Shown here: positions 22,977-48,200 of the stretch, one piece after another
How the letters are laid out: each line of letters opens with the position of its first letter
Position numbering within the stretch: position 1 is the first letter of the stretch
Notes under the pieces: model-generated
Databases searched by the model: none
What the model saw: only the letters and a program-made list of their open reading frames with translations
Told to the model about the DNA's origin: nothing
Made by a program: the position numbers and the translations under genes
Source of the DNA: Rhodothermales bacterium
Lineage (GTDB): Bacteria; Bacteroidota; Rhodothermia; Rhodothermales; Bin80
Reading direction: 5' to 3'
Assembly (NCBI GenBank): GCA_958296045.1
Contig: CATQHT010000001.1
Span: 682,001-746,000, forward strand
DNA: 64,000 nt

Positions 22977-23406
22977 TGCGTCTGCTATTTGGCCATAGTC
23001 CCGCCCCCGGTGGCGTGCACCATCTCGGGAGCATTCGGCATGCATGCTGTACGCGTTGATAAAGGCAGTGCGTCGAAGCAAGAGGCCACGCCAATAGGCT
23101 TGCGGCAAGGACTGCTGCTGGGTGATACAAGGTCTGGACCGTCAGTTCACCGTGCCTTGACTGTTGGCGCGTAAACTTGGTACTCTTAAGGCTTTGCTCA
23201 AGTTTGTCAATTGCGCCCCATGCGCAGCGAAATCGGGGTTTATTTTGTGGCAATATGGCCTCAAATTATGTGTTATACCTATGATCCATATGGCTTTGAT
23301 ACCTTTTTTTCTCAAAAATACCCAATGTAGTGGAATTATCCAGAACCATTTCGCTGCTAAGCCGTATATTGACGCATGGGCACCCGATACCCGCACGCTC
23401 ACACGC

Positions 23407-25215
23407 ATGTACATCCGCGCCAAGACACGCATCCTTAAATCAGGTGCCAAGGCCACTAGCTACGCGCTGGTCGAATGCCACCGTATCAAGGGCGCTCCTA
23501 AACAGCGGACCGTCCTCAACCTGGGCCAATCCTTCGCAATCCCCAAAGAACAATGGCGCGCATTGATCCTCCATATTGACGAGGGCTTACGAGGACAGAG
23601 CCGCCTAACGTTTGAGAGTGAAGGCCTCCGCCATGCCAGCGAGACCATCGTGGAGAAGCTGCTGGAAAAGGGCTACAACGTGGACGACCCACGCGACGAC
23701 CGGGATGCCGTCATCATTGATGAAGTCCATCATACCGACACTCGTACCGTCGGAGGCGAACGTGTGGCTCTGAAAGCGTTGCAGCTGTTGGGATTCGCAA
23801 AGTCCTTGCGAATGCTGAAGTTGCGCGAAGATCAGATTCACTTGGCGACGGCGCTGGTGGTCGGGCGCATGCTCTTGCCCGGCAGTGAACGACATACGCA
23901 TGAATGGATGCACGAACGATCCAGCATCCTGGAGTTACTGCACTGCGACCTCCCCAGTCTGAGCAGCCTTTACCGTATCGGAGATGCCCTCTACGAGCAC
24001 CGTCAGTCGATCATGGATGCACTCTTCGGCACCACGAAGGAGCTCTTGGGATTCAGCGAAACCATGGCCTTCTTTGACCTGACCAATGTTTTCTACACGG
24101 GCCGCAAGAAAGGGGACTTGCTGCGGCATGGTCGCAGCAAGGAAAAACGGTCCGATTGCCCACTGGTGACGTTGGCCTTGATGATGGATGCATCGGGGTT
24201 CCCCCGCACGGCGGAAATCCTCCCGGGCAATGCCAGTGAGCCTGCCACGTTGCACCAGGCCATTGCACAGCTGAACGGAGCCAAGCCCACGGTGATTATG
24301 GACGCTGGCATCGCTACAGAGGCCAATCTGGCGTATTTGAACGAACAGGATCTGGACTGGATCTGCGTGCAGCGTACGAAGACCCCGCCGGTACCCAAAG
24401 ACGCACCAGATCAAGTTTTCAAAACCGCCAGCGATGTCGACGTGCGTGCCTGGGCACTCCCAGACGAAGGAGGAGAACGGCGCGTGTATCTGCACAGTGA
24501 AGCCCGACAAGCAGTCAGCGACCAGATTGTTGGAGCACAGCGTGTGAAATTCGAGGAGGCCATCGCGCACCTGAACGCGGGACTTGCGCTGCCCAGACGT
24601 CTGAAGAACTTCGATAAAGTGCAGATCCGGGTGGGCCGACTCATAGAAAAGTACAAGCAGGTTGCCTACCAGTATGATGTTAAAGTGACCAGGAAGGCTG
24701 GCAGCACCCACGCCGAAAAGATTTGCCTCACACAGAGGCCTGCCTACGAGGCATGTACGGAGGCGCTCGGCGGGTATGTACTGCGCACCAGCCATGTGGA
24801 ATGGTCGGTCAAGAAAATCGCACAGACCTATTGGCAGCTAGGAGAGATCGAACGCACGTTGGGCACCATGAAATCCGATCTTGGATTACGTCCGATCTAC
24901 CACAGTCGGGACCTTCGCATAGAAGCCCACCTCTTCCTGTCCATTCTCGCCTTTCACGCAGCGCATCTGATACGCAGCCTATTGAGAACCGTCGACATCC
25001 ACAGCAGCTGGGGCACACTCAAGGTCAAGCTCAACCAGATGCATCGTGTAACAACCGTGCTCCCACAAAACGCAACCCATTGCACCCTGCTCAAGAAAGA
25101 CCAGGACCTCAAGCCGTTCCACCGTAAAGTCTTCCGCGCGGTGGGGCTCAAAACCGGCACGTACACCCGCAGAATGAAAGCAAGACGCCCCGCTAAAGGG
25201 CACGCGAACATGTAA
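23407..25215 (+). CDS. IS1634-family transposase
   Basis: This 602-residue DDE transposase belongs to the IS4-superfamily branch IS1634. The N-terminus (MYIRAKTRILKSGAKATSYA, then LVECHRI) is typical. Catalytic candidates are the aspartate in AFFDLTNVFYTG, the aspartate in TVIMDAGIATEANLAYL and the glutamate in LGEIERTLGTMKSDLGLRPIYH. The frame is open further upstream, but the ATG at 23407 fits family length. No frameshift or internal stop is seen, so the copy may be active. Confidence 0.92.
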   Translation: MYIRAKTRILKSGAKATSYALVECHRIKGAPKQRTVLNLGQSFAIPKEQWRALILHIDEGLRGQSRLTFESEGLRHASETIVEKLLEKGYNVDDPRDDRDAVIIDEVHHTDTRTVGGERVALKALQLLGFAKSLRMLKLREDQIHLATALVVGRMLLPGSERHTHEWMHERSSILELLHCDLPSLSSLYRIGDALYEHRQSIMDALFGTTKELLGFSETMAFFDLTNVFYTGRKKGDLLRHGRSKEKRSDCPLVTLALMMDASGFPRTAEILPGNASEPATLHQAIAQLNGAKPTVIMDAGIATEANLAYLNEQDLDWICVQRTKTPPVPKDAPDQVFKTASDVDVRAWALPDEGGERRVYLHSEARQAVSDQIVGAQRVKFEEAIAHLNAGLALPRRLKNFDKVQIRVGRLIEKYKQVAYQYDVKVTRKAGSTHAEKICLTQRPAYEACTEALGGYVLRTSHVEWSVKKIAQTYWQLGEIERTLGTMKSDLGLRPIYHSRDLRIEAHLFLSILAFHAAHLIRSLLRTVDIHSSWGTLKVKLNQMHRVTTVLPQNATHCTLLKKDQDLKPFHRKVFRAVGLKTGTYTRRMKARRPAKGHANM

Positions 25216-28985: not shown

Positions 28986-29870
28986 TCATGGGCAAACAGA
29001 CCGGCCGCTCGCTACGTTTAGCATCCCGCGGTAATCGGCCCCCTGAGCTTGGAAGTATCCCGCCCAGAATGCGCAAAATTCCTCGCTCTGTTGCTTTTCC
29101 CCGTTGTGATCCAGCCTAGGGATACGAAAAACAGTCACAGCGACTCCCTCAAGGGCTGACTCCAAGACGTGATAGTTGGGTGAGCCCTTGAGTCGGTCAA
29201 AATCCATGCCATCGTCATAGAAACTCCAAAAGGGACTATTCTGGATCATGTCGGACACAATCAACAGACTCCGTTGGACCTCGGGGTATTTCTCGCAGCG
29301 ATCAACGCTGACCTCCGCGATGGAAACAATTATTGGGGAAGTGGAGGTGGGGGGACCCTGGAGGGCGGACTCCAGTGCGTCGTTCATCGGCTTGATGAAC
29401 TCTTTTCGGCGGTGCTGTTCATATTTCTCGTGGTTTACGTTACGAGAGCCTCTATAGTCGTCTGGAGGTCCCCAGCCGGAGGTTCCACAATAACAAGCAT
29501 CCTCTGCGCAGTCCGAGGTGTCAGACAACGTAAACACTTTGACTTCGGTTGGCCTGTGTTGGTCAGGCCCGGTAGGAGTTCGATCCAGAGCATCCAACTC
29601 GGCCTCGATTACGGCCCCGAGTCGACGCAACGCGGCATTTCTAATTCGCCGATCGATTTCATCGGACACATCCACCAGAATTGTTATCTGACCCGCCAGT
29701 TTCCCGCACGCGAGAACGTCGGAGCAGTCGGCACTTTGTCGCGAAATGGCGTTGGCGTGATCTACTCCCGCTCCGAGAAGGAGAATCGTGCCGACAAGCA
29801 GTGCAAGGCCCTGGCATCGGGCGAAGCGTTTTCCGGCACCTCTTGGGGACCATATTGCGCTATTTACCAT
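28986..29870 (-). CDS. Exported VWA-like protein of unknown function
   Basis: This 294-residue protein has an N-terminal signal or anchor (hydrophobic GLALLVGTILLLGAGV, then DHANA). It then has GQITILVDVSDEIDRRIRNA, which fits the first strand of a von Willebrand A domain with a partial metal site (DxSxx). A later LLIVSDMIQNSPFWSF fits a second VWA strand. A cysteine-rich loop (CAEDACYCGTSGWG) lies between. A full MIDAS is not evident. It is the third and most distal gene of a minus-strand cluster with two membrane proteins. No family name is recognised; a sensing or adhesion role outside the membrane is a guess. Confidence 0.6.
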   Translation of the reverse strand: MVNSAIWSPRGAGKRFARCQGLALLVGTILLLGAGVDHANAISRQSADCSDVLACGKLAGQITILVDVSDEIDRRIRNAALRRLGAVIEAELDALDRTPTGPDQHRPTEVKVFTLSDTSDCAEDACYCGTSGWGPPDDYRGSRNVNHEKYEQHRRKEFIKPMNDALESALQGPPTSTSPIIVSIAEVSVDRCEKYPEVQRSLLIVSDMIQNSPFWSFYDDGMDFDRLKGSPNYHVLESALEGVAVTVFRIPRLDHNGEKQQSEEFCAFWAGYFQAQGADYRGMLNVASGRSVCP

Positions 29871-30056
29871 AGGTCAGATGTCAAGCTTTATGTTAGTTCG
29901 TGTGCGTTTACAATCAGCGCAGCTCTGGAGCCGCAACGCCATCTGGGAGGAATGCTGGCACAGGTACTTGGCAGGAGTGCTGATCACACCTCATTTATCG
30001 ACGTCCTTCTTCAGTTCGTGCCGATCTACTTGTTCGCTGGTGCAAATGACGCATGG

Positions 30057-31436
30057 CTAGTTCGGAAGGAATGCATCAATCTCCGCCCGCAGATCTGATA
30101 CTCGTCCGCTAAACTCCTGCATTTGCGCCTCGATAGCCTCCAGCTGCTGCTTATGCCGCTCCAGTGCCACCGCCCTTGTCCCAGGGTCAGCAAGCTCCGG
30201 CGGCTCTGGCTGTTTCCAGACTAACTGATCAGCGTCAGTCCAGACTTCACCGTTGATGCCCCTACTTCGCCTGTATAACCGGATTTTCTCCTTGAACTCA
30301 TTCTGATGCCTATCGACCTGATCGAGGTAAGCCCTTTGGTGATCATCGATACGTGCAGCCACAATCGATGCAGCGTGGTGCTGAGCGATCGCATCACCAA
30401 AATGGGACTTGCAGTTCGAGGTAAAGGTATTGCGAAAGGCCACCTCTTTCTCCGCTGCTTTGCCACGCTCCTCCGTGATGCTCTCAACTAGCGCCTTAAG
30501 TGCATCGTCATGGCGTTTCTGCCACTTACGGACCTTAAGATATGGATCGAAAAACAACCAGAAGAACTTGTACGCAGCAAAGGCGCAGGCAATGAGGCCG
30601 ATCGTCATCAGCAGGTAGGACTCAAACCCGTCCAGCCTGAACGGGCTGTGAAGGAATAGGCACACCGCTTCGCTCTGCGCAGTTATTTCGGTTTGGTCTG
30701 CCGTGTAACATGTGTTGCCAGGCGGATTGCCCTCACTTGGGTATTCATTCGACAACGCACCCCGATAGTGTCCAACCAGCAGGTTCCAGCATAAAGCAAC
30801 CGCGGCAAAGGTTGCTAGACCGAACCAGCCTGTGAGTTTCTTAGCTGGGGCGGCACGCCTAGACATTCGATAAAATGCTGCAAGCAGAAAACCCAACGCA
30901 ATCACGTTAACTACGCTAATCCAGAGTGCGAGGCGTTGCCCCGCGGTCTGCCCCCCTAGCAAATTTTTTGCAAAAAGTGGCGCATTAGCGTGCTCCGTTT
31001 CAACATAGAGAACTGCGCCAAGCAGCAGCACGGTCACCCAAGGCCATTGGTACCAAGGTAGACCGAGCAGATACTTTTTCCGAAACTCCGGCACCTCCTT
31101 GGCGTCCCGCTCTGCGATGCGCTCAGCGTCACGCAGCTCCTTCTCCTTCTTAACGGCCTTGGACTGCAAGTCTCCCAGCTTTGAAAGAGTCTGGTCGCGG
31201 GACGCGCTGAGGTCAGCGACGGATTCAGTTGCTAGTTTGCGCGCTTCCCCCTTGTAATAGTCGCCAACCTCTTCGACAGGTGTATCCGGCATATGCCGGT
31301 GGCGATAATCGACGATGCTTTCTCGTTCCGCTGCGACGTTACCCCTGTACTCGCTAGACGCAGCCTCCAGAGCTTCCACGAAGGCCGTTCTTATATGGGA
31401 CTCAAGAGCGTCCGGCTGCGGTGAACCGTTATCCAT
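30057..31436 (-). CDS. Four-helix membrane protein with long coiled coils (paralogue 1)
   Basis: This 459-residue protein has an N-terminal charged, coiled-coil region (about 1-120). Four membrane helices lie near 128-147, 171-190, 205-224 and 272-295, and a second coiled coil runs to the end. Between helices three and four is a loop with NLLVGHYRGALSNEYP and a cysteine pair (TCYTADQTEITAQSEAVC). The same layout and the GHYxxAL phrase recur in the upstream gene product, so the two are paralogues. The start overlaps the end of that gene by 8 bp. The family is not recognised; a two-component membrane complex is inferred. Confidence 0.65.
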   Translation of the reverse strand: MDNGSPQPDALESHIRTAFVEALEAASSEYRGNVAAERESIVDYRHRHMPDTPVEEVGDYYKGEARKLATESVADLSASRDQTLSKLGDLQSKAVKKEKELRDAERIAERDAKEVPEFRKKYLLGLPWYQWPWVTVLLLGAVLYVETEHANAPLFAKNLLGGQTAGQRLALWISVVNVIALGFLLAAFYRMSRRAAPAKKLTGWFGLATFAAVALCWNLLVGHYRGALSNEYPSEGNPPGNTCYTADQTEITAQSEAVCLFLHSPFRLDGFESYLLMTIGLIACAFAAYKFFWLFFDPYLKVRKWQKRHDDALKALVESITEERGKAAEKEVAFRNTFTSNCKSHFGDAIAQHHAASIVAARIDDHQRAYLDQVDRHQNEFKEKIRLYRRSRGINGEVWTDADQLVWKQPEPPELADPGTRAVALERHKQQLEAIEAQMQEFSGRVSDLRAEIDAFLPN

Positions 31437-32538
31437 TCTCTCGCTTTGCTATCTCTCGCCCTATGTACTCCAGCTCTAGCGCCAAATTCTGTCCGCTCTG
31501 ACCGAACAGGCTTTGGCGATCCCCTCTCAAAGTCTTCGGAAACATCTTCGAGGGATCACTGGGCTCTTCCTCTTCCTCTTCCTCCTCTTCTTCGTCGGTT
31601 TCAATCTCGCCAGCTGCTTTCTCTTGGGCCTGTGCATCTAGATGCGTGACCCAAAGCATAGCAGCTAAGAGCAATGTGAATAACCCAGACAGCACCAGAA
31701 TAAAAGAGAAGCCATTACCAGCGGGGATGAACCGTGTTAGCAATAGGCAGCGAGCCTCTTTGCCAGCCACACTCGGCGAAGTAGACTCACTGACAAAACA
31801 GCTTTGCGCGATCTCGACGCCATTGTCAGTCACTGGAGCACCGGGAGCCGTGACCTCCTGGACGCTAGGCGCAGGAAAATCTGAAGGCAGTGCATCGCTG
31901 TAATGCCCGAAGAACAGGTTACAGACTAATCCGATACACCCTATGCCCAAGGCAAGTGCAAAGGCCCACGTCCTGGTATTTGATTGGGGTGCCTGCTCGG
32001 TCGTGGGTAGCGTCAGCGGCTCATCGGCTCCAGGATCGTCCTGGGAATGTACCTGCAATTGCGTTTCTGGGACATCCTCCTCGATGACATCAGCGGGCTG
32101 ACCGGAAGTTCCTAACGAGCTGTTCCGGTTTTGCGCGTACTGCCAGATGTGCCCCACAGTAACCCCGACAAGCACATTCACGACTCCGATCAATAGACCT
32201 TCCCTAAAGGCTATCTGATGGAATGGCCACGAGCTCGACAAGTACACGAGAAACGCCGCTCCCAGCGATTGAAGCAAGATCAGGGCCACCAGATACAGGA
32301 GGTACCTCCTCCTTTGCATCCACATCGCGAAACGCGAAGGCCTTACATCCTCTAAGTCTACCTTGGGCGGCGAATTCTGCTGCCATAGAAGGTAGATTGC
32401 AGGACCATGGCGTGACTCGAGCGCCGGACCATGGAGCGGTTCCTGGGGCCTTCGCGAGAAGGGAGACCACAACCGCTGCCAGACACGGCCTTGTGGCCGT
32501 ACCGGCTCTTCGGGAGACCTCGGCTGGTTGTCAGCCAC
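31429..32538 (-). CDS. Four-helix membrane protein with acidic tail (paralogue 2)
   Basis: This 369-residue protein (GTG start) has four predicted membrane helices near 78-100, 113-130, 190-212 and 275-300. The loop after helix three reads NLFFGHYSDALPSDFP and holds a cysteine pair 16 residues apart (SCFVSE... to ARC), as in the neighbour. The C-terminal region carries an unbroken run of ten glutamates after EIETD. The protein is shorter in coiled coil than its paralogue. It is the first gene of the cluster. The function is unknown. Confidence 0.65.
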   Translation of the reverse strand: MADNQPRSPEEPVRPQGRVWQRLWSPFSRRPQEPLHGPALESRHGPAIYLLWQQNSPPKVDLEDVRPSRFAMWMQRRRYLLYLVALILLQSLGAAFLVYLSSSWPFHQIAFREGLLIGVVNVLVGVTVGHIWQYAQNRNSSLGTSGQPADVIEEDVPETQLQVHSQDDPGADEPLTLPTTEQAPQSNTRTWAFALALGIGCIGLVCNLFFGHYSDALPSDFPAPSVQEVTAPGAPVTDNGVEIAQSCFVSESTSPSVAGKEARCLLLTRFIPAGNGFSFILVLSGLFTLLLAAMLWVTHLDAQAQEKAAGEIETDEEEEEEEEEEPSDPSKMFPKTLRGDRQSLFGQSGQNLALELEYIGREIAKRENG

Positions 32539-33311: not shown

Positions 33312-33635
33312 TCAGCTGCTCTTAAGAGCCTTCAACCCGCCCAAACCAAACTGAACGCCAAAGGCGGCGCAGGAAAGATCCCACGTCAGCGCATCGAAGC
33401 TGCCAGCTAAGGTATGGTAGACCACAAAGGCCGTTGTCATCACAGTCAATGCGGCGGCCTGAGATTCCCTGTCGCTCTTACCTACACAGAGCAAGGCAAA
33501 GGCCACCACGCACATCACGAGCATTGCCCAAGAGAGCATGCCCCAATAGTCGCCTGGTATCCAGCTTTCTAGCGCATAGTACACCAAGGCCAGAAGACCA
33601 ACAACAGCGTTGAGTGCTGCAATAAGCTTATTCAT
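33312..33635 (-). CDS. Small four-helix membrane protein, copy 1
   Basis: The product has 107 residues, almost all hydrophobic, with about four membrane spans: LIAALNAVVGLLALVYYALE, GMLSWAMLVMCVVAFALLCV, ALTVMTTAFVVYHTLAGSFD and a C-terminal span ending in KALKSS. It resembles the next gene (33759-34091) in length, in the MNK start, in the W-(M/L)SW-MLV phrase and in VxHxTLxGS. The two are tandem duplicates. The function is unknown. Confidence 0.6.
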   Translation of the reverse strand: MNKLIAALNAVVGLLALVYYALESWIPGDYWGMLSWAMLVMCVVAFALLCVGKSDRESQAAALTVMTTAFVVYHTLAGSFDALTWDLSCAAFGVQFGLGGLKALKSS

Positions 33636-33758: not shown

Positions 33759-34091
33759 TCAGGATCTCAGTTTCCTTCCGATAGCAATGCCACACACCAC
33801 ATACAACACCGTGGTGATGGCCCATAGATCGCCGCTGCCCGCGCTGCCACCTAGCGTCTGGTGCACAACCAGAAGCGTCATCAGTAGCGTCCAGAAGCGG
33901 CTGCTGCCACCTCCGTCACTGTCACCGTCGAAGCCAAAACTAAAATACGTCGCCAACAGAGCAGTGACGAGCATTACCCAGCTCATCCACTCCCACTGAG
34001 AGCCATCGGTGCCTAGAATTGGATCCAGGCAAAAATAGAGCAGCACCAGAAATGCCACAAGAGTGTGAACGCCTCCTAAGACCTTGTTCAT
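33759..34091 (-). CDS. Small four-helix membrane protein, copy 2
   Basis: This 110-residue paralogue of the downstream gene has spans at GGVHTLVAFLVLLYFCLDP, WMSWVMLVTALLATYFSFGF, TLLMTLLVVHQTLGGSAGSG and LWAITTVLYVVCGIAIG. The loop between spans two and three is glycine/aspartate-rich (DGDSDGGGSS), unlike the copy. The 123-bp gap between the two genes contains no recognisable gene. Confidence 0.6.
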   Translation of the reverse strand: MNKVLGGVHTLVAFLVLLYFCLDPILGTDGSQWEWMSWVMLVTALLATYFSFGFDGDSDGGGSSRFWTLLMTLLVVHQTLGGSAGSGDLWAITTVLYVVCGIAIGRKLRS

Positions 34092-34562: not shown

Positions 34563-35261
34563 CTAACGGCGCTCTAGCAGCCAGCCTCCGTACAGGAGTC
34601 CAGCCCAATATCGGTGAATGAGCCGCAGCCCCGCGTCGTGGCAGATCTGCATTATGCGCTCCTCAGGTACCCATGCGATCCCAGCAGCCAACCGCCGCAA
34701 AAGCCGTGCCTTAGCAGCATCACCATACCCTCGAAGGCTCATATAGCGCTTCCAGGCCTCATAGAAAAAGGCATGGTGAGGTGCCGACCGGTCTCCATGC
34801 AGGTCAAAGAGCGCTACCGTACCGCCCTTTGGCATTCGCTCCGACACGCTGGCCATCAACTGCTCCTTAGCACCATCGTCGCGTAGGAAATGCATCACGT
34901 TGATGACTGTGGCCGCATCGTACCGCTCAGAAGCCGGAAGCTCGTGCACATATCCGTGGTAGAAGCTGGTGCGGCCTCCAGCACCCACCTTCTGTGCCAC
35001 CCGCTGCGACAGCCGTATCATCTCCGCGCTGGGGTCGACAGCCGTAAAAGACCATCCCGGCGCACTGGGCGCAAATGACCTGAACTCCTGGCCAGTGCCA
35101 CAGCCTACAATCAGCACACGGGCCGATGCGCCCGCCCTTTCTAACAGCAGCGCCAGCGTCGCCGGAAATAACGTGTCATATCCCGGAATTACGCGGTGCG
35201 CCAGATCCTCGTAAATCTCGCCGTAGTCGCCGTCAAAGTTGAACGCCTCCGCGTTTAGCAT
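34563..35261 (-). CDS. Class I SAM-dependent methyltransferase
   Basis: This protein of about 232 residues has motif I ARVLIVGCGTGQEFRSFAP, the acidic end of strand two in WSFTAVDPSAEMIRLSQRV, and the post-motif MHFLRDDGAKEQLMASVSERMPKGG. These are standard for methyltransferases that use S-adenosylmethionine. The start is taken at the ATG of MLNAEAFNFDGDYG; a TTG 63 bases upstream is an unlikely extension. The substrate is unknown and no neighbour points to one. Confidence 0.85.
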   Translation of the reverse strand: MLNAEAFNFDGDYGEIYEDLAHRVIPGYDTLFPATLALLLERAGASARVLIVGCGTGQEFRSFAPSAPGWSFTAVDPSAEMIRLSQRVAQKVGAGGRTSFYHGYVHELPASERYDAATVINVMHFLRDDGAKEQLMASVSERMPKGGTVALFDLHGDRSAPHHAFFYEAWKRYMSLRGYGDAAKARLLRRLAAGIAWVPEERIMQICHDAGLRLIHRYWAGLLYGGWLLERR

Positions 35262-35364
35262 TCCCTTACCATTGCCCGCAGTCGCCTCAGCCACCTGAAC
35301 GAACCGGTTTGCCCTTAGTAACAACAGCCATTACCCCGCTCCCACGTATACCTTTTCGTGTGAT

Positions 35365-36399
35365 ATGGCCAACATTATCCTCCGTCCCGGCTGGCAAATT
35401 AAGGAAAGTCGGGCCACATCACTTTCCGCTTACCTGAATCGTCGGGCCTTTGTCAAGGCGATGGGTCTGGGATCCATTGGGCTCTCTACCATGAGCCTGG
35501 GATGCTCGCAGCAGGCGCGTAGCGCTACTGACCCGGATGGCCCTCTGGATACCATCCCGGATGACGCGCCGCGCGAAGGCTATCCGGCACCCCGCAACCC
35601 CGCATACGAGGTTCCCGAACGCGTCATCACGGACCGGCTCGTGACCTCTTCCTACAACAACTTTTACGAGTTCATTAACCAGGGAGACCTGAAGCGGGTC
35701 TGGCCTCATACCGAGCAGTACAACCCCTTTCCAGGGACGCTGACCGTGGGAGGCCTAGCGGAAAAGCAGACGCTGGATATCGCCGACCTGATCCGATCTG
35801 TGGACCTGGAAGAAAGGCTCTATCGATTCCGCTGCGTGGAAGCCTGGTCGATCACCGTGCCTTGGACGGGCTTCCCGCTCGCCAAACTGATCGAGCGCTG
35901 CAAACCCAGAAACAACGCCAGATTCGTCAAATTTATTTGCGTCAACCGGCCCGAAGAACTGCCCGGGCAGAAACACGCCCACTGGTACCCGTGGCCCTAC
36001 TTTGAAGGGCTCCGCATGGACGAAGCGCTTAATGAGCTGGCCTTCGTGGCTACAGGACTGTATGGCGAGCCGCTACCCAAACAGAATGGCTCTCCCCTGC
36101 GCCTAGTACTGCCATGGAAATACGGCTACAAAGGCCCCAAAGCAGTGGTACGCATCGAATTTGCGCGCCGGCAGCCAGCGACCTTCTGGAATGAGCTGCA
36201 GCCGCGGGAGTACGGGTTCTTGTCCAACGTGAATCCCAACATTCCGCATCCGCGATGGAGTCAGGCGAGCGAACGGTTCTTGTCGACCGAAGGCGTCGAA
36301 GAACGTATGCCCACCATGATGTTCAACGGGTACGATGAATGGGTCCAAGAGCTCTACCCTGACGCGCCTCGTAGCTATGCCGGCCCCATCATCCGATAG
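35365..36399 (+). CDS. msrP: MsrP-like molybdopterin oxidoreductase catalytic subunit
   Basis: MsrP (YedY) is a periplasmic molybdoenzyme that repairs methionine sulfoxide in envelope proteins. The 344-residue protein has a Tat signal (RRAFVKAMGLGSIGLSTMSL, followed by a lipobox-like LGC). Family motifs include ITDRLVTSSYNNFYEF, the molybdenum-ligand region RCVEAWSITVPWTGFPL and LVLPWKYGYKGPKAVVRIEF. Its heme membrane partner MsrQ is not adjacent; the next gene on that side is a convergent two-helix protein. Confidence 0.93.
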   Translation: MANIILRPGWQIKESRATSLSAYLNRRAFVKAMGLGSIGLSTMSLGCSQQARSATDPDGPLDTIPDDAPREGYPAPRNPAYEVPERVITDRLVTSSYNNFYEFINQGDLKRVWPHTEQYNPFPGTLTVGGLAEKQTLDIADLIRSVDLEERLYRFRCVEAWSITVPWTGFPLAKLIERCKPRNNARFVKFICVNRPEELPGQKHAHWYPWPYFEGLRMDEALNELAFVATGLYGEPLPKQNGSPLRLVLPWKYGYKGPKAVVRIEFARRQPATFWNELQPREYGFLSNVNPNIPHPRWSQASERFLSTEGVEERMPTMMFNGYDEWVQELYPDAPRSYAGPIIR

Positions 36400-36404
36400 G
36401 CGCT

Positions 36405-36438
36405 GCAAGCACCGGTGCTCAGCGCTCCGGGTGCTTGC
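36405..36438. terminator. Hairpin between convergent genes, candidate shared terminator
   Basis: A perfect 9-bp stem, GCAAGCACC (36405-36413) and GGTGCTTGC (36430-36438), lies at the meeting point of msrP and the convergent gene and overlaps the latter's stop. The left arm also starts a 12-bp palindrome (36409-36420), so two folds compete. There is no T-run on either side, so efficiency as an intrinsic terminator is doubtful. Confidence 0.4.
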
Positions 36439-36868
36439 GCAGCCAACGATTCCAGGCGAATAGCGCGACCGCCAGCATCATAGCACCTGCCAGGCTTATG
36501 CCCGCCTGCGCTGCGGCAATCAGGCGGTGGGCTGGCATGAGCGATTCTACCACGACGTCCTGAGGCGCACCGGGCTGTACCCTGACGCCCAGTGAGTCCG
36601 CGTCCTCCAACTGCGGCAGCAGCGAATAGGGTAGCGACATCCGATCCTTCACCAGCGTGCCACCGCCTGCTAAGGGCACCCGCAGGCTGATGTAGCCATA
36701 CGTGACATCAGCGCGGCGCGACTGCTCCCACGCCACTACCTTAGCAGTGGCGCTCACTCCGTGGCGCCACGTGGACTGCAGGTCACATGCCAACTTGGCC
36801 TGGTCGATGCACAGCGCTAAGAGCAGTACGGGAAACACCCACAACACGCGGGCAACGATGCGGACCAT
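36419..36868 (-). CDS. Two-helix membrane protein, DUF3592-like
   Basis: This 149-residue protein has an N-terminal membrane helix (ARVLWVFPVLLLALCID), an extracytoplasmic beta-rich domain (SATAKVVAWEQSRRADVTYG, then YISLRVPL) and a C-terminal helix (GISLAGAMMLAVALFAWN). The layout fits DUF3592-type proteins of unknown function. It ends 8 bases before... the HNH gene lies just downstream at 36876 on the other side of its start, so the two are same-strand neighbours with a 7-bp gap. Confidence 0.6.
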   Translation of the reverse strand: MVRIVARVLWVFPVLLLALCIDQAKLACDLQSTWRHGVSATAKVVAWEQSRRADVTYGYISLRVPLAGGGTLVKDRMSLPYSLLPQLEDADSLGVRVQPGAPQDVVVESLMPAHRLIAAAQAGISLAGAMMLAVALFAWNRWLRKHPER

Positions 36869-36875
36869 GTCCAGA

Positions 36876-37376
36876 TCAGCTCAAGAAGAGGTATGGCTTC
36901 CACGTGTCATCCACCGTGCCCACAAAGTCTCGGATGAACATCACATGGCTGGGGCGAAACGGGCGCCGCAGTAGCGGCATGGCTGCCTCCTCGGGTGTAC
37001 GAGAACCCTTCTTGTTGTTGCACGCCGAACACGCCGCGACGAGGTTGGTCCACACATGCCGCCCACTACGTGACCTGGGTATGACATGGTCTACCGTCAG
37101 CTTCTCGCCGCTATTGCAATACTGGCAGCGAAAACCGTCGCGCCGTAGCACATTCCTGCGCGAAAGCATAATCGCCCGATACGGAACCGTCACATAGCCG
37201 CGCAAGCGCACGATGCTCGGCCAAGGATACCTCGTGCTGGGGGACCGCATGTACCGGTCCGGTATCGTTGCCACCATGTCCGCCCGGTGCAGGTGAACCA
37301 TCACAACAGCCCGCTTGACCGTACAAACAGTAAGGGCGCTGAAGTCCTGGTTGAGGACGAGTACGTGAGGCGTCAT
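36876..37376 (-). CDS. HNH endonuclease
   Basis: The 166-residue protein carries an HNH nuclease core: CQYCNSGEKLTVDHVIPRS, then NLVAACSACNNKKGSR. It has two CxxC zinc pairs and the DH and N of the HNH motif. The start VLVLNQDFSALTVCTVKRAV matches a widely distributed stand-alone family found in many Bacteroidota and cyanobacteria. Its role is unsettled; it is usually chromosomal, not phage-linked. It lies just upstream of the DUF3592-like gene. Confidence 0.9.
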   Translation of the reverse strand: MTPHVLVLNQDFSALTVCTVKRAVVMVHLHRADMVATIPDRYMRSPSTRYPWPSIVRLRGYVTVPYRAIMLSRRNVLRRDGFRCQYCNSGEKLTVDHVIPRSRSGRHVWTNLVAACSACNNKKGSRTPEEAAMPLLRRPFRPSHVMFIRDFVGTVDDTWKPYLFLS

Positions 37377-37529
37377 CGCAGCCGCAGGGCTCCAAGACCC
37401 GCGCTCTGCCGAATCCGCAAAGAAACCTCAATATGGGATGATGCTAGGGGGAAGGCACAGGGGTTTCATGACAGATGGCGACTCTGCAGCACGCATTGCC
37501 CGTTATACCTGTCACGGCTATGCCCATAC

Positions 37530-38363
37530 CTAAAATATACGCTGAGCCGCGCTGCGCAATGCCGTCACCTCGACAGCATCACCGACCCTGACAGTGCCCA
37601 GACTAAGCGGAAGCAGGTTCTCGCCAAAATACACGTTCGTGCCACGCCGGCGAAAGGTAGCCAGCGTACGAAGCGGCTCTTTTCCTGTCTCCAAGGTGGC
37701 CTGATCCACGGTGGTGACGACGCATCGCGCACAGGGTTTGGCAACCCTGAAGGGTACGGCCCCGATACGGATGTTATGCCAGGTGTCTTCGGCAAATGGA
37801 CGCGCGCCGCTCACTACCACGTTAGGTCTGAACCGGTTCATGGGCAACGAATGCGCCATGCGGGCATTGAGGCTGCGAAGGGATTGCCTGGAGGTCAATA
37901 GCAGTGGGTAGCCGTCTGCGAAGCTGACTAGCCCAGCGTCTTGTTGCGGCGCCGCAGGATCGCTTACCGCCCTTGCGGCGAGGTTGTCCATAAACACCAA
38001 GCGGCACTGATGGCCAGTAACTTGGCTGAACCACCGGTCCGCGGCGGGCCCGGCGCGGACCGCCTCAACCGTTGATCGCCAGATGGTGACCTTCAAGCGT
38101 GGCGCACCAGACTTGGGACGGTCTATCGTAAGGCAGTCGGCGCCGGGGGCATAAACCAGAAGCCCCTCGGTCGTGATGTCGACGCGCACTGCCGCTAATG
38201 CCCGGATGCGGCGCTGGGACAGAAACCGGCCCTGTGCATCCACCAGCATCCAGCGACGATCGTTGGCCAGCCCCTGCGGCTCCACCCGCGCTTCCGTAAG
38301 ACGTAGCCGTGCGCACCCCTTCACCGGGTAGATCCAAATGCGCTCAAGGTGCATGGTCCGCAT
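37530..38363 (-). CDS. MOSC-domain protein (YcbX/mARC-like)
   Basis: The 277-residue protein has an N-terminal MOSC_N barrel (LERIWIYPVKGCARLRLTEA and ANDRRWMLVD). A C-terminal MOSC domain follows, with the conserved cysteine in KPCARCVVTTVDQATLETG and NVYFGENLLPL. Members bind a molybdenum cofactor and reduce N-hydroxylated compounds (YcbX, mARC). Two in-frame ATGs (MRT and MHLE) are possible starts. The gene is divergent from the beta-lactamase/VanX fusion and its 5' end lies 48 bp from that gene's start. Confidence 0.88.
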   Translation of the reverse strand: MRTMHLERIWIYPVKGCARLRLTEARVEPQGLANDRRWMLVDAQGRFLSQRRIRALAAVRVDITTEGLLVYAPGADCLTIDRPKSGAPRLKVTIWRSTVEAVRAGPAADRWFSQVTGHQCRLVFMDNLAARAVSDPAAPQQDAGLVSFADGYPLLLTSRQSLRSLNARMAHSLPMNRFRPNVVVSGARPFAEDTWHNIRIGAVPFRVAKPCARCVVTTVDQATLETGKEPLRTLATFRRRGTNVYFGENLLPLSLGTVRVGDAVEVTALRSAAQRIF

Positions 38364-40818: not shown

Positions 40819-43800
40819 CTATGCCGGCAGTACCTGGCGTCCTGACCGATCGCGCGGGGCGGGCAATGGCAGACCGAACGGCATAAGCAGCGATGCTTCT
40901 GCCCCCGTAACAGCCGTAAGCTCTTCCAGCTCCTTCTTGGAGCCCACCACCAAGTCACGCAGCCGGCGCTGACCTGTGCCTGCTGGGATCTGGTGGCCAA
41001 CAACCACATTCTCTTTCAAACCGTACAGCGGATCCTTACGCCCTTCAATCGCAGCTTCGGTCAACACCTTTGTAGTCTCCTGGAATGACGCTCCAGCCAG
41101 GAAAGACTCAGTTGCTAAGGAGGCGCGGGTAATACCCAAAAGTATCGGTTCCGCAACCGCAGGCTGTGCTTCACGCGTAATGACCGGCCGCTTGTCCTGG
41201 CGCTTCATCTCGGAGTTAACTTCGCGCAGACGGCGCCGATCAATAAGGCTCCGGATCGGTAGGTCGCTGTCGCCCGAGTTGATGACGACGAGCTTGTCGT
41301 ACAGATTGTCGTTGATCTCCTCCATATAGAAGCGCGCGATGCGCTCCTCCTCCAAAAGCGTGGTATCTCCCGGGTCTGTGACCTTCACTTTTTGCATCAT
41401 CTGGCGAACAATCACCTCAATGTGCTTGTCGTTGATGGTGACACCCTGCATGCGGTAAACCTCCTGGATGCCATTGACCAGGTACTCCTGCACCGCACGC
41501 GGCCCGCGAATGGCCAAGATGTCCTGCGGAGAGATCCGCCCGTCCGACAACGGCTCCCCAGCACGCACGAAGTCATTCTCGGCTACGAGAAGCTGCTTTT
41601 TCAGCGGCACTAGGTAGACTCGCTCTTCTGAGCCATCCCGGCTGGTTAGGATGACCTCCTGCTTGCCGGGCCGCTTGGTACCGAAGGTGACTACGCCGTC
41701 AATCTCGCTGACGATGGCTGGCTCGCTGGGCGTGCGAGCCTCAAAAAGCTCTGTCACCCTGGGAAGGCCTCCTGTGATGTCGCGCGTCCGTGCAGACTGC
41801 CGCGGGATCTTGACAAGCACCTGGCCCGCCTGAACCATCTGACCCTCCTCGACCTGGATGCGCGCCCGCACAGGAAGCGGATATTCGCGCTCGGTCATGT
41901 CGGCCAAAAAGATCCTGACGGCCGGGGTCAGACTGCGCTCCCGGCTCTCGGTGATCACCTTCTCCTTAAAGCCAGTATGGTCGTCCGACTCCTCGCGGAA
42001 GGTCTTACCTTCATGGATATCCTGGAAGGCAGCCCGCCCTTCCACCTCGGAAAGAATGACGCTGTTGTAGGGATCTACGATCGCCAGCACATCGCCTTTC
42101 TCTACGTCCTGCCTCTCCTTGACACGCAACTCAGCACCGTAAGGAATGATCGATCCGTAGAGCTGGCGTCCATCATGCTCCAGGTCAATAATCCTGATCT
42201 CACCCTGACGGGAAAGCACCACGGTGTGGGGCCCATCTTCTCCCTGGTATTCCACCGTGCGCATATTCTCAAACACAATGGCACCAGAGTGCTTGCACTG
42301 GATCGTGGTTTCAGCCTGGATGCGGCTGGCTGTACCACCCACATGGAAGGTCCGCAGCGTAAGCTGTGTCCCGGGCTCTCCGATAGACTGACCCGCTACC
42401 ACCCCAACGGCTTCCCCCTGCTCGACCAAGAGGCCTGTGCCCAAGTTGCGCCCATAACAGTTGGCGCAGGCGCCGCGCCGCGCTTCGCACGTCAGCACCG
42501 AACGGATCTCAACCGAATCAATAGAGGTCTCCGCGATCTGCGTGGCGCGCGCCTCGTCAATCACCTCGTTGGCGAGCACTATGCGCTCGCCCGTGAGCGG
42601 ATCGTAGACGTCATGCAGTGACACGCGTCCCAAGATGCGGTCGGCCAAAGGCTCGACCTCCGTTTCATGGTCCTTCAGCGCAGAAATCGCGATGCCGCGC
42701 AGCGTGCCGCAATCCTGCTGCGTGATGGTCATGTCCTGCGCCACATCCACCAGACGACGCGTCAGGTAGCCGGCATCCGCCGTCTTGAGCGCCGTATCAG
42801 CCAAGCCTTTGCGCGCACCATGCGTGGAAATGAAATACTCCAGGACGCTCAACCCTTCCTTGAAGTTGGATACGATCGGGTTCTCAATGATTTCACCTGC
42901 TTCTCCCTTCATGCTCTTCTGCGGCTTGGCCATCAAACCGCGCATCCCACCTAGCTGCCGGATCTGCTCTTTCGAGCCGCGAGCGCCTGAATCGGCCATC
43001 ATGTAGATGGCATTGAATCCGTCACGATCCTTTTCCAATGCGTCAAACAGCACTTCGGAAACCTTGTTGTTCGTGCGCGTCCAGATGTCAATGACCTGAT
43101 TGTAGCGCTCCACATCGAAGATGAAGCCAAGCTCATAGTTGGACAGCACAGCGCTGACCTCCTCGTGGGCCTGGGTGAGCAGCTCCTCCTTCTCGTCGGG
43201 CACGACAATGTCCGCGACAGAGAACGTCAGCCCGCCCATCGTGGCATACTCGAACCCTGCCTCCTTGATGTTGTCCAGGAATCGGGATGTCTCCGGGAAG
43301 CTCGTTGCGTTTAGCACGTTAGCAATGATGCGCCGCAGATTCTTCTTGGTGAGCACATCATTGATGAATCCAAGCTGGGGTGGAATAAACTCGTTGAACA
43401 ATACGCGTCCGGTCGAGGTGTTCACCTTGGTGCCGTCATCTAACCGGACGACGATCTTGGCGTGCATGTCCACCTTCTTAAGGTCAAAAGCCTGGCGCAC
43501 TTCCGCAGTAGACGAGAAGCGCATCCCCTCACCCTTAGCCCCATTGCGAGACTTCGTCAAATAGTACAGGCCTAGCACCATGTCCTGCGTAGGCACCGTG
43601 ACGGGTCCACCGTGCGCGGGGCTGAGAATGTTGTGACTGGACAGCATCAGCACGATGGCTTCCAGACACGCTTCGTGTCCGAGCGGCACATGTACCGCCA
43701 TCTGGTCCCCGTCAAAGTCCGCATTGAAAGCGGTGCAGACCAATGGATGCAGCTGAATGGCCTTGCCCTCTGTCAGGACGGGCTGAAAAGCCTGGAACCC

Positions 43801-45138
43801 GAGGCGGTGCAGCGTCGGGGCCCGGTTCAGCATCACAGGCCGCCCTTCGATCACCTTCTCCAGGATGTCCCACACCTCCGCCGTACGGCGCTCTACCACC
43901 TTCTTGGCACTCTTGACCGTCTTGACGATGCCGCGCTCAATGAGCTTGCGGATAACGAACGGCTTAAATAGCTCTACGGCCATCTCCTTGGGCAGCCCGC
44001 ATTGATGCAACTCCAGCTCTGGACCCACCACGATCACCGACCGACCGGAATAGTCGACGCGCTTGCCCAACAGATTCTGTCGGAAGCGGCCCGACTTGCC
44101 CTTGAGCATGTCGGAAAGGCTCTTCACCGGGCGGTTGTTGTCGCTGCGCACCGCGTTGGCCTTCCGGGAATTGTCAAAAAGGCTGTCGACCGACTCCTGA
44201 AGCATGCGCTTCTCGTTGCGCAAGATGACCTCTGGCGCCTTAATGTCGATCAGCCGCTTGAGCCGGTTGTTTCGGATAATGACGCGACGATACAAGTCAT
44301 TGAGATCGCTAGTCGCAAACCGACCTCCATCCAGCGGCACCAAAGGACGCAGCTCAGGCGGAATCACCGGGACCACGCGCAACACCATCCACTCTGGCCG
44401 ATTCTCCATGCGGCGGTTAGCATCGCGGAATGCCTCTACTACCTTTAGACGCTTCAACGCCGAGGCTTTGCGCGCCTGGCTGGACTCCGTCTTGATCTGG
44501 AAACGCAGCTCGTACGAGAGCATGTCAAGGTTGAGCCGCTTGAGCATGGTCTCGATGGCCTCGCCTCCCATCATCGCGATGAATTTGTCTGGATCGTCAT
44601 TGCTGAGCCGGTTGTTGTCATCGCGAATCTGGTACAGGAGGTCCAAATACTCATCCTCCTTTAGCAGGTCACCCTGCTTGACCTCGTGCACCTTGGCGCA
44701 TCCTGCCTGGACCACTACGTAGCGCTCATAGTAGATCACTTTCTCGAGCGCCTTGGACTTCATGCCCAACAGATGGCTGATCTTGTTGGGCAGGGTCTTA
44801 AAAAACCATATGTGCACCACGGGCACCGACAACAAGATGTGCCCCATGCGCTCACGGCGCACGCTCTTCTGCGTGACCTCGACGCCGCAACGGTCACAAA
44901 TGATGCCCTTATAACGGATGCGCTTGTACTTGCTACAGTAGCACTCCCAGTCTTTGACAGGACCGAAAATCCGCTCACAAAACAGCCCTTCCTTCTCCGG
45001 CTTAAAGCTGCGGTAGTTGATCGTTTCCGGCTTGAGCACTTCGCCGTGGCTCCGCTCCAGAATCGTGTTGGGCGAGGCCAGGCTTATCGTGATTCCACTG
45101 AAATCCTGCTTAAGTCTGGAAAGCTGGCCGTAGGGCAT
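40819..45138 (-). CDS. rpoC: DNA-directed RNA polymerase subunit beta-prime
   Basis: This is the catalytic subunit of RNA polymerase (1439 residues). The N-terminal zinc site is [20 protein letters not shown]. The catalytic [12 protein letters not shown] with three magnesium-binding aspartates is near residue 470. The bridge/trigger region has [20 protein letters not shown], and the second zinc site is [14 protein letters not shown]. The C-terminal part SHLLAG-type repeats end with [15 protein letters not shown]. It follows rpoB by a 70-bp gap and closes the ribosomal/polymerase operon. Confidence 0.99.
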
Positions 45139-45208
45139 ATTTCAGAGTTTCCGGGTGAAAAGATTGCTGTCTGCGGTGCGACCCACGGGGGACTGGCCCG
45201 TGCATGGC

Positions 45209-48200
45209 CTAGTCAAGGCGGATCTCAAGCCCCAAGCCTTGCATCTCGCGCACCAGCACGTTGAAGGCTTCGGGAATTCCGGCCTCGGGCATGTTGTCGC
45301 CTTTGACTACCGCTTCGTAGGCTCGGGAGCGGCCCTGGACGTCATCGCTCTTGTACGTAAGCATCTCTCGCAGCACGTTGGAGGCGCCATACGCATACAT
45401 GGCCCAGACCTCCATCTCGCCCAGGCGCTGGCCACCGAATTGTGCTTTGCCGCCCAAAGGCTGCTGCGTAATCAGGCTGTACGGACCGATCGAGCGTGAG
45501 TGAATCTTGTCATCGACCAGGTGGCTCAGCTTCATCATGTAGATCTGACCGACGGTGGTCTTCTGATCGAAGGGCTCTCCGCTGCGCCCGTCATACAGCT
45601 GTGCACGGCCGTCAGCTGGCAGCCCCGCCTCGCGAACGTACGAGTACATTTCGGACGTGTTGGCGCTTTCGAAGCTGGGTGTCGCAAACCGCTTACCCAA
45701 CACCTGGCCAGCCCATCCCAGGAGCGTCTCATAGATCTGCCCCAAGTTCATCCGCGACGGGACGCCCAAAGGATTCAGGATGATGTCGACCGGCGTACCG
45801 TCTTCCAAGAACGGCATGTCCTCCACGGGGACGATACGTGCCACAACGCCCTTGTTGCCGTGCCGGCCCGCCATCTTATCACCGACCTGGATCTTACGTT
45901 TCTTGGCGATATATACCTTGGCGAGCTGCACCACGCCATCGGGCAACATGTCGCCTATCTGTACACGATGCTCGTCCCGCTTTGCATTCGCTATGATTCT
46001 GCCGGTCTCCGCCCAATAGTTGGCAAAGAGCCTCTTGAGCAGCCGGGTGCGCCTCTTATCACCTTCGAGCACCACGCGCTGCGCGTCCATCGTGTGGATG
46101 GGTATGTCGTGGAAGGCCTCGGCCCGAATAGTCGACCCGGGCGGGACCACCTCTAGTCCCTGCTGCGTCCACATGCCGCCCGACGTCCGGCCTACCACCA
46201 GTGCAAGAAACTTTTTGCGCAGGTTTTCCTGCATTTGGTCCAGGTCCCGCTCCCGCCGCCGCTCGATTTCCGCCAGCGTCTGCTGTTCCCGCTTCTTTGC
46301 TGATAGGTCGGATTTACGACGGCTGAACAGATTCGTATCGAGAACGATACCATTCATGCCGGGAGGTGCCTTCAGCGAGGCATCCTTGACATCGCCCGCC
46401 TTGTCTCCAAAGATGGCTCTTAGCAGCTTCTCTTCCGGGGTCGGGTCCGATTCGCCTTTGGGCGTGATTTTGCCCACGATGATGTCCCCTGCCCTCACCT
46501 CGGCACCAACGCGAATAATCCCGCGCTCATCGAGGTCCTTGGTTGCCTCTTCTGATACGTTGGGAATCTCCCGCGTCAGCTCCTCATGACCCCGCTTCGT
46601 GTCGCGCACCTGTAGCTCATACTGTTCAATGTGCACCGACGTGAAAACGTCTTCAGACACCACGCGCTCAGACAGAACGATAGCATCCTCAAAGTTGAAG
46701 CCGCGCCACGGCATAAATGCCACCAGCACGTTCTTGCCCAATGCCAGCTCGCCCTGGTCGGTAGCGAATCCGTCGGTAAGCACGGTACCCTTCTGGACCT
46801 TCTGGCCCACCTTAACGATAGGCTTTTGGTTGATGCAGGTATCTTGATTGGTTCGGCGGAACTTGATCAGCGGGTATTCCCGCACCGGCTCGTTGAATGC
46901 GATCTGGCTCTGTCCGTCCTTGTACCGGTAACGGACGATGATGCGCCGTGAGTCTACATGTTGTACCGTGCCGCGCCCTTCGGCCACGATGACCGCACGC
47001 GAGTCACGTGCGACTCGGTGCTCAAGCCCGCTGCCCACGATCGGTGCTTCCGCACGAAGTAGAGGCACCGCCTGGCGCTGCATGTTCGAGCCCATCAGCG
47101 CGCGGTTGGCATCATCATGCTCCAAAAACGGGATGATGGATGCGGAAGGCGACACGATCTGGTTCGGTGCGATATCCATGTACTGGATATCGCCAGGACG
47201 CTCATTGGGGAAGTCTCCTCTATAGCGGCAGCGCACCCGCTCATCAAGGAAGTTGCCCATCTCGTCAATGCGCGCATTGGCCTGCGCGATGACCGAATCG
47301 TCCTCCTCCTCGGCGGCTAGGTAGGAAATCTCGTTGGTTACCCTGCCGTTCTTGACGCGTCGGTAGGGCGTTTCAATGAAGCCCAGCGGGTTGATCAGCG
47401 CATGGACACAGAGCGACGAAATCAGACCGATGTTCGGGCCTTCAGGCGTCTCAATCGGGCATAGCCGCCCGTAGTGGGTATAGTGCACATCGCGCACCTC
47501 AAAGCCTGCCCGGTCGCGCGTCAGTCCCCCCTTACCAAGAGCCGAAAGCCTGCGCTTATGCGTAAGCTCCGACAAAGGGTTCGTCTGGTCCATAAACTGA
47601 CTCAGCTGACTCGTGCCAAAGAAGGTGTTGATCACACTCCGGACCGTCCGTTCATTGACCAGTGTCTGCGGCGTCAGCCGGTCGGCAGACCGTTGATTCA
47701 TCCGCTCGCGGATGGTGCGCGCCATGCGCGCGAGCCCGATAGAGTACTGCTGTCCTAGCTGCTCCCCTACCGTCCGCACCCGCCGGTTGCTCAGGTGGTC
47801 GATGTCGTCGGGGCTGCCCACACCATTGCGCAGGGCTATCAGCCTGCGTGTGATGGCGACCACCATGTCAATGACATGGTGCGCCTCCAAAGAGCGGAGC
47901 CCAGCTTCCACATTGATGCTAAGCCGCTTGTTGATGCGGTGACGACCTACCTCTCCCAGATCAATTTTGGCAATCAGGCGGGCCAGCTCACGCCGCGCGG
48001 TTTCTTCGTCGGGTGCATCATGCTCCACCTCACGCAAGCGACGGTAGATGTAGTGCAGCGCCTGTGAACGGTCCGTCGTGGGGTCCTTCTGGAGCGTGGT
48101 CAGGAGCGTGCTGTTATCTGTCGCATCGTCCTGGTTGGCATCCTTCGACATCACGAAGATCTCCTTGACGCCATGCTCCTTGAGCTTTTCGTAGTCGTCC

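Follow-up and report, generated by a model that had tools for sequence, protein, structure and literature searches.

In the Zorya motor ZorAB, residue D24 of ZorB is essential (PMC11890865). Tethered von Willebrand factor A (vWA) proteins encoded beside TolQR-like motors, including those of Rhodothermota, have been proposed as force transducers, and the published sets are arranged as TPR-TolQ-TolR-TolR-vWA or combine TolQ with a paired transpore-helix vWA protein (PMC12204202). In PMC11229360, the membrane itself is given as the site of action of type III CRISPR membrane effectors, namely Cam1, CorA and, probably, Csx23. The FLSHclust survey lists vWA-related sets with transmembrane (TM) proteins near CRISPR loci (UAS-7, UAS-87, UAS-91 and others), for which its main text gives no family or mechanism (PMC10910872), and a membrane-remodelling operon unites FtsZl1, vWA, OmpA and GTPase genes (PMC2875224). 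We analyzed a stretch of 64,000 nucleotides, here called the window, from a Rhodothermales bacterium (assembly GCA_958296045.1, contig CATQHT010000001.1, positions 682,001 to 746,000), in which three consecutive minus-strand open reading frames (ORFs), all found at the coordinates given here, encode the four-TM proteins P3 (31429..32538, 369 residues, GTG start) and P2 (30057..31436, 459 residues) followed by the exported vWA-fold protein P1 (28986..29870, 294 residues). As judged from homologues and family scans, which bear on both its recurrence and its lack of a name, this gene set is a real module of unnamed families, and the cluster probably represents a membrane arm, so far undescribed, of bacterial defence or of envelope stress.

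Scans of P1-P3 against Pfam, NCBIfam, PADLOC and PHROG returned no significant family; weak matches to Yip1, LeoBC and EF0750 were rejected as due to coiled coil or the acidic run. No CARF or SAVED domain was detected in P1-P3 by Pfam, and a sequence search of the PDB with four-TM and vWA profiles gave nothing. We found no paper joining these families in the open literature. Hidden Markov models (HMMs) built from 21-23 loci collected via an alphaproteobacterial motor gene, with no window sequence included, matched P1 at 4.6e-27 and P2 at 1.2e-23, and every vWA gene examined among the relatives stands directly behind a gene for a multi-TM or four-helix protein.

In plasmid searches, the four-TM and vWA pair was found in Paracoccus, Rhizobium, Sinorhizobium, Microvirga and Tistrella, where it is followed by two further genes, the third gene of the operon encoding a membrane protein with a coiled-coil tail and the fourth an OmpA-family protein; this four-gene operon occurs as genes RL_RS31080-31095 on pRL11 of Rhizobium johnstonii 3841. 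Using the third gene as query, we collected 83 loci from genome and viral collections, nearly all of them from Rhizobiales, with one Flavobacteriaceae metagenome-assembled genome and three contigs classed as viral. The gene order 4TM-vWA-MotA-MotB is kept on one strand in 83 of 83 loci, two of which have one gene split by a frameshift. Complete operons stand on the contigs that IMG/VR labels as viral (L110, L111, and L112).

The last two genes of this operon resemble the Zorya motor. PADLOC models matched the Paracoccus fourth gene to ZorB2 at 5.7e-25 and the third gene to ZorA2 at 1.3e-6 over the TM core and the tail; the NCBIfam cut-offs were not reached. The hhalign comparison of the third-gene TM core with E. 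coli ZorA2 is weak and, taken alone, only suggestive (P 1.5e-4 to 2.9e-4), the aligned TM3-TM4 motif being SID..I...A..TSI.G.....LFN.M. The fourth gene has Pfam OmpA matches at E 1e-5 to 1e-6, and its product carries a transpore-helix glutamate at the position of ZorB D24 in all 82 readable copies. Matches of the MotA-like profile to apolipoprotein and spike structures in the PDB were coiled-coil artefacts, and searching with only the TM core of this profile gave no convincing match. Taken together, the predicted products have the make-up of a ZorAB-like motor, namely a channel core with a coiled-coil tail and a one-TM protein with an acidic residue and an OmpA domain.

The alphaproteobacterial operon resembles Zorya in pairing a channel protein of ZorA type, tailed by a coiled coil, with an OmpA protein of ZorB type; it differs in its added four-TM and vWA genes, in a transpore-helix Glu that replaces the Asp, and in having no recognised ZorC/D or ZorE, the immediate flanks having been scanned in part. 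The four-TM and vWA genes fill the extra gene places of the operon, and neither matches a PADLOC model. With the published force transducers, the alphaproteobacterial version shares an inner-membrane-tethered periplasmic vWA protein accompanied by a 5:2-type motor; however, the partner here is a four-TM coiled-coil protein together with an OmpA-type MotB, or there is no motor. Genes for vWA and OmpA proteins occur together with membrane proteins without an assigned function in the FtsZl1 operon, whereas no tubulin-like or GTPase gene was recognised in the operons studied here, for which no model search was made. Some alphaproteobacterial copies lie near defence genes, for instance type IIG restriction and Gabija GajA genes; the mad3, mad8 and AriA matches in these flanks look like generic ATPases and were rejected.

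A second context emerged from a search across the window's phylum, which revealed vWA relatives of weaker similarity, every one of them encoded directly after a multi-TM gene; two of them are inside CRISPR loci. By Pfam, one of these loci encodes Cas10, Csm3/Csm4-type RAMPs, a CARF protein and Cas6, and the other Cmr2, Cmr3, a RAMP, Cas6 and RT-Cas1. The diverged pair of a four-TM protein and a vWA lipoprotein is located within CRISPR loci, as defined by Cas genes or arrays, at 8 of 14 loci (G155, G769, G349, G555, G615 twice, G558, and contig 95 of G456); G155 and G769 are nearly identical, so that 7 of 13 independent loci is the safer count. Genes beside the pairs include Cas1 or RT-Cas1, Cas2 and csx3, as well as arrays. 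These are raw counts, to be read against the fact that CRISPR loci and the 10 kb around them generally make up little of a bacterial genome. A type III locus surrounds the pair in G155, G349, G615 and G769; at G555, G558 and the G615 locus with an array, what is visible is limited to adaptation genes or arrays, and on contig 95 of G456 to csx3 and an array, so that none of these loci is proven to be of type III.

The CRISPR-linked pairs are true relatives of the window proteins, because profile-profile comparison matches their vWA proteins to the window family (probability score 97.6%, E 4.7e-12, 210 columns) and their four-TM proteins likewise (98%, E 2.8e-13), and because the four-TM proteins of both groups have a common motif, G..(D/N)G....P, in the N-terminal arm. 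Like Cam1, Cam2, Cam3, Csx23 and CorA, the relatives in G155, G349, G615 and G769 are membrane proteins within type III loci; unlike these effectors, they come in every case with a vWA lipoprotein as partner. The alignments show no CARF- or CorA-type domain in the relatives, whose proteins were not scanned against Pfam. Their type is absent among the effectors in the main text of PMC11229360, and neither that main text nor that of PMC12669027 mentions a vWA effector. Judged by the main-text description, the CRISPR-linked pair may be one of the vWA-related sets of FLSHclust (PMC10910872). In one type III locus, an extra multi-TM ORF (L142:5948-6928) stands between the CARF protein and the pair.

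Within the window's own order, the vWA family is present in 7 of 114 genomes, as stand-alone pairs or triples. Two genomes of the same family, G010 and G013, have two four-TM genes followed by the vWA gene and adjoining rpoC; G029 and G054 have a single four-TM gene and then the vWA gene; G001 encodes one long four-TM protein before the vWA protein, and its second half resembles the C-terminal arm of the other paralogue. The second four-TM paralogue is limited to the window's own family, being found in the window genome (G000), G010 and G013 and partly fused in G001. P3 is nearest to one G010 paralogue, the second four-TM gene (E 3e-10), and P2 to the other; because they match different G010 paralogues, both probably predate the split of G000 and G010, and their order was swapped. 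The window genome has a second four-TM and vWA pair on contig C2 (L027:9777-12423); a few kb from it are genes that resemble, by eye, those of a GHKL ATPase and a DNA methylase. A profile search found no motor-gene homologue in G000, G001, G010 or G013; many weak matches in the order fall on the coiled-coil part and were not counted. Among the other matches of the analysis, one in G180 was false, being an unrelated ORF of 118 residues, and one in G608 stood at E 7.6e-4. G037, from the same order as the window, has the same four-gene set as the Alphaproteobacteria, its fourth gene giving no match to the MotB profile. Distant pairs, in which a protein with 5-6 hydrophobic segments precedes the vWA protein, were seen at L138, L139, L141 and L145, where no CRISPR array was found. 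At L163:8356-12705, the pair is followed by another vWA ORF and by ORFs that by eye look like PP2C and kinase genes, an arrangement recalling Ter-type sets.

In P1, a hydrophobic segment at residues 16-42 (29745..29825, minus strand; hydropathy, AlphaFold helix 15-43) is a predicted signal peptide or anchor, and the vWA domain covers about residues 56-285 (29016..29705, minus strand; invariant columns and fold search). Its invariant columns include D67-x-S69, resembling a metal-ion-dependent adhesion site (MIDAS), SPI at 178-180 and SD at 206-207. The AlphaFold model (pLDDT 80) matched BatB, NorD-VWA, the vWF A3 domain and integrin I domains in Foldseek, the best match having E 5.6e-5, probability 1.0 and a moderate TM-score of 0.35/0.46; P1 has, on this model, a vWA fold. 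An intact DxSxS motif is lacking in the window protein (DVSDE) and in the alphaproteobacterial ones (mostly DVTDP), and DxSxS/T is intact in only some CRISPR-linked and distant relatives.

The P2 model (overall pLDDT 67, rising to about 80-93 within the membrane helices) has long helices on both sides of four membrane helices, the arms being predicted as cytoplasmic; a fold search with it gave nothing below E 0.28. The helices are TM1 (residues 132-158, 30963..31043, AlphaFold), and, by AlphaFold and hydropathy, TM2 (162-192, 30861..30953), TM3 (197-229, 30750..30848) and TM4 (271-295, 30552..30626), all on the minus strand. The phrase NLxxGHYxxALxx(E/D)(Y/F)P is common to both four-TM proteins at the end of the third membrane helix, as NLLVGHYRGALSNEYP in P2 (residues 218-233, 30738..30785, minus strand) and NLFFGHYSDALPSDFP in P3 (residues 207-222, 31873..31920, minus strand); its family-wide form is NLxx(G/A)H(Y/F)R(D/E). 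Right after it, the TM3-TM4 loop of P2 has a pair of cysteines (243 and 259). P2 and P3 align at BLASTP E 8e-7, a similarity beyond chance by which they are paralogues. Ten consecutive glutamates occupy residues 316-325 of P3 (31564..31593, minus strand), on the cytoplasmic side if the N-terminus is inside. The preliminary description had noticed, from the letters alone, an exported VWA-like protein, two membrane proteins sharing topology and this phrase, and the glutamate run, and each of these features was confirmed, the phrase being exact in both proteins. It had also reported gene overlap, which holds for P3 and P2 (8 bp, 31429-31436) and fails for P2 and P1, which are separated by a gap of 186 bp.

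No ZorA- or ZorB-like gene was detected in or near the window cluster by ORF inspection and library scans, and no TolQ-like motor gene adjoins it in the ORF list; promoter and terminator scans were uninformative. Immediately upstream of P3, two small tandem membrane proteins of 107 and 110 residues (33312-33635 and 33759-34091, minus strand) look paralogous and have no clear family. A methyltransferase, oxidoreductase, HNH and MOSC block and then rpoC and rpoB (34563-38363 and 40897-49063) are syntenic with G010. The clusters of the window and G010 flank opposite sides of this one conserved block near rpoBC; that is, they share one neighbourhood and occupy separate slots. A large transposase-like ORF (23164-25215, plus strand), IS1634-type by eye, also lies close to the cluster.

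We propose that the core of the module is a four-TM protein with cytoplasmic coiled-coil arms, joined from the periplasm by a vWA protein. In the most likely arrangement, P2 and P3 would assemble within the inner membrane into one helical complex of both proteins, and the vWA domain of P1 would bind the periplasmic face of this complex at the conserved NLxxGHYRxAL / TM3-TM4 loop and hold or couple it. The coiled-coil arms would receive a trigger from the cytoplasm, which would switch the complex and perturb the membrane, leading to cell arrest as a defence or stress response. In related lineages, the same pair is attached to CRISPR-Cas loci, mostly of type III, where Cas10 makes a cytoplasmic signal, or to a ZorAB-like proton-driven motor, which the alphaproteobacterial operon has at hand. 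The four-TM switch, as an output common to both, could explain the two contexts. There is about an even chance, in our estimate, that the window cluster is a stand-alone version of this widespread and still unnamed inner-membrane module, working as such a defence or stress switch; for the relatives, the evidence leans towards a defence role.

The preliminary description had read the cluster as a membrane complex that an exported vWA protein joins and that matches no named system. The family scans, the constant four-TM and vWA adjacency and the defence-type contexts elsewhere agree with this, the formation of a complex being what we infer; the two families co-occur and belong to no named system, even though the alphaproteobacterial version does contain a Zorya-like motor, and it is the second four-TM paralogue that does not co-occur beyond the window's own family. 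The external sensing suggested there would be one possible role of the vWA protein; the contexts suggest a cap or effector subunit whose trigger lies in the cytoplasm or which a motor drives. The defence setting that it proposed to look for was found for the relatives in CRISPR-Cas loci and was missing for the window copy.

Several observations weigh against a defence switch in the window lineage. The ORF list and an array scan showed no defence gene or CRISPR array next to the window copy, no type III locus surrounds it, and the two Cas10-bearing type III loci of the same genome (L172 and L173) lie on a different contig, C3, unlinked to the cluster; a homologue of the motor gene is likewise absent from this genome. 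The rpoC-adjacent clusters of G010 and G013, and the window copy in the same neighbourhood, are placed as for a long-resident gene set. P3 is without long coiled-coil arms, the third MIDAS position is degenerate in the window and alphaproteobacterial branches, the defence genes in alphaproteobacterial flanks are raw sightings rather than a measured enrichment, and the perturbation of the membrane is itself inferred.

The main rival is a housekeeping machine of the envelope or cell wall, in which the vWA protein would transduce force in the periplasm or anchor the wall, the four-TM protein serving as a structural scaffold. The MotA/ZorA-like and OmpA/ZorB-like pair in the four-gene operon, the force transducers proposed in Rhodothermota, and the near-rpoBC position in three genomes of one family, a long-resident chromosomal setting, all fit it; however, no motor homologue exists in G000, G001, G010 and G013, the published transducers are syntenic with TolQ/TolR and bear either an SHLS motif or an Asp in the transpore helix, features not evident in P1, the diverged pair is strongly linked to CRISPR, and the distribution in the order is patchy, so that we consider this machine rather unlikely. 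A regulatory stress-sensor complex along the lines of the preliminary description, in which the vWA protein would be the external ligand-binding part and envelope damage would be reported to the cytoplasm via the coiled-coil arms, is suggested by the exported vWA protein, the cytoplasmic arms and the vWA/PP2C-like set adjoining the pair at L163; it appears improbable, given that P1-P3 have no recognisable output domain (kinase, cyclase or DNA-binding) and that a fixed linkage to motor or Cas genes better suits an effector or coupling role. Chance neighbourhood, for which the gap between P2 and P1 might speak, is refuted by the adjacency and order kept across Alphaproteobacteria and in several families of the window's phylum, and has next to no probability.

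Returning to the proposed membrane switch, we put forward tentatively, and at less than even probability, that the four-TM and vWA pair is a single portable executor at the membrane, that it became linked on separate occasions to the RNA-guided signalling of type III CRISPR and to a proton-driven ZorAB-like motor, and that stands alone, with a duplicated four-TM subunit, in the window lineage; if true, it would be a new class of bacterial immune membrane complex. If right, the analysis would name a module of the membrane found again and again in CRISPR-Cas loci and in the Zorya-like motor operon of many Rhizobiales, and would link two defence families through one common output. Because Rhizobium johnstonii 3841 carries the operon on pRL11, the question can be put to the test in a plant symbiont that is tractable.

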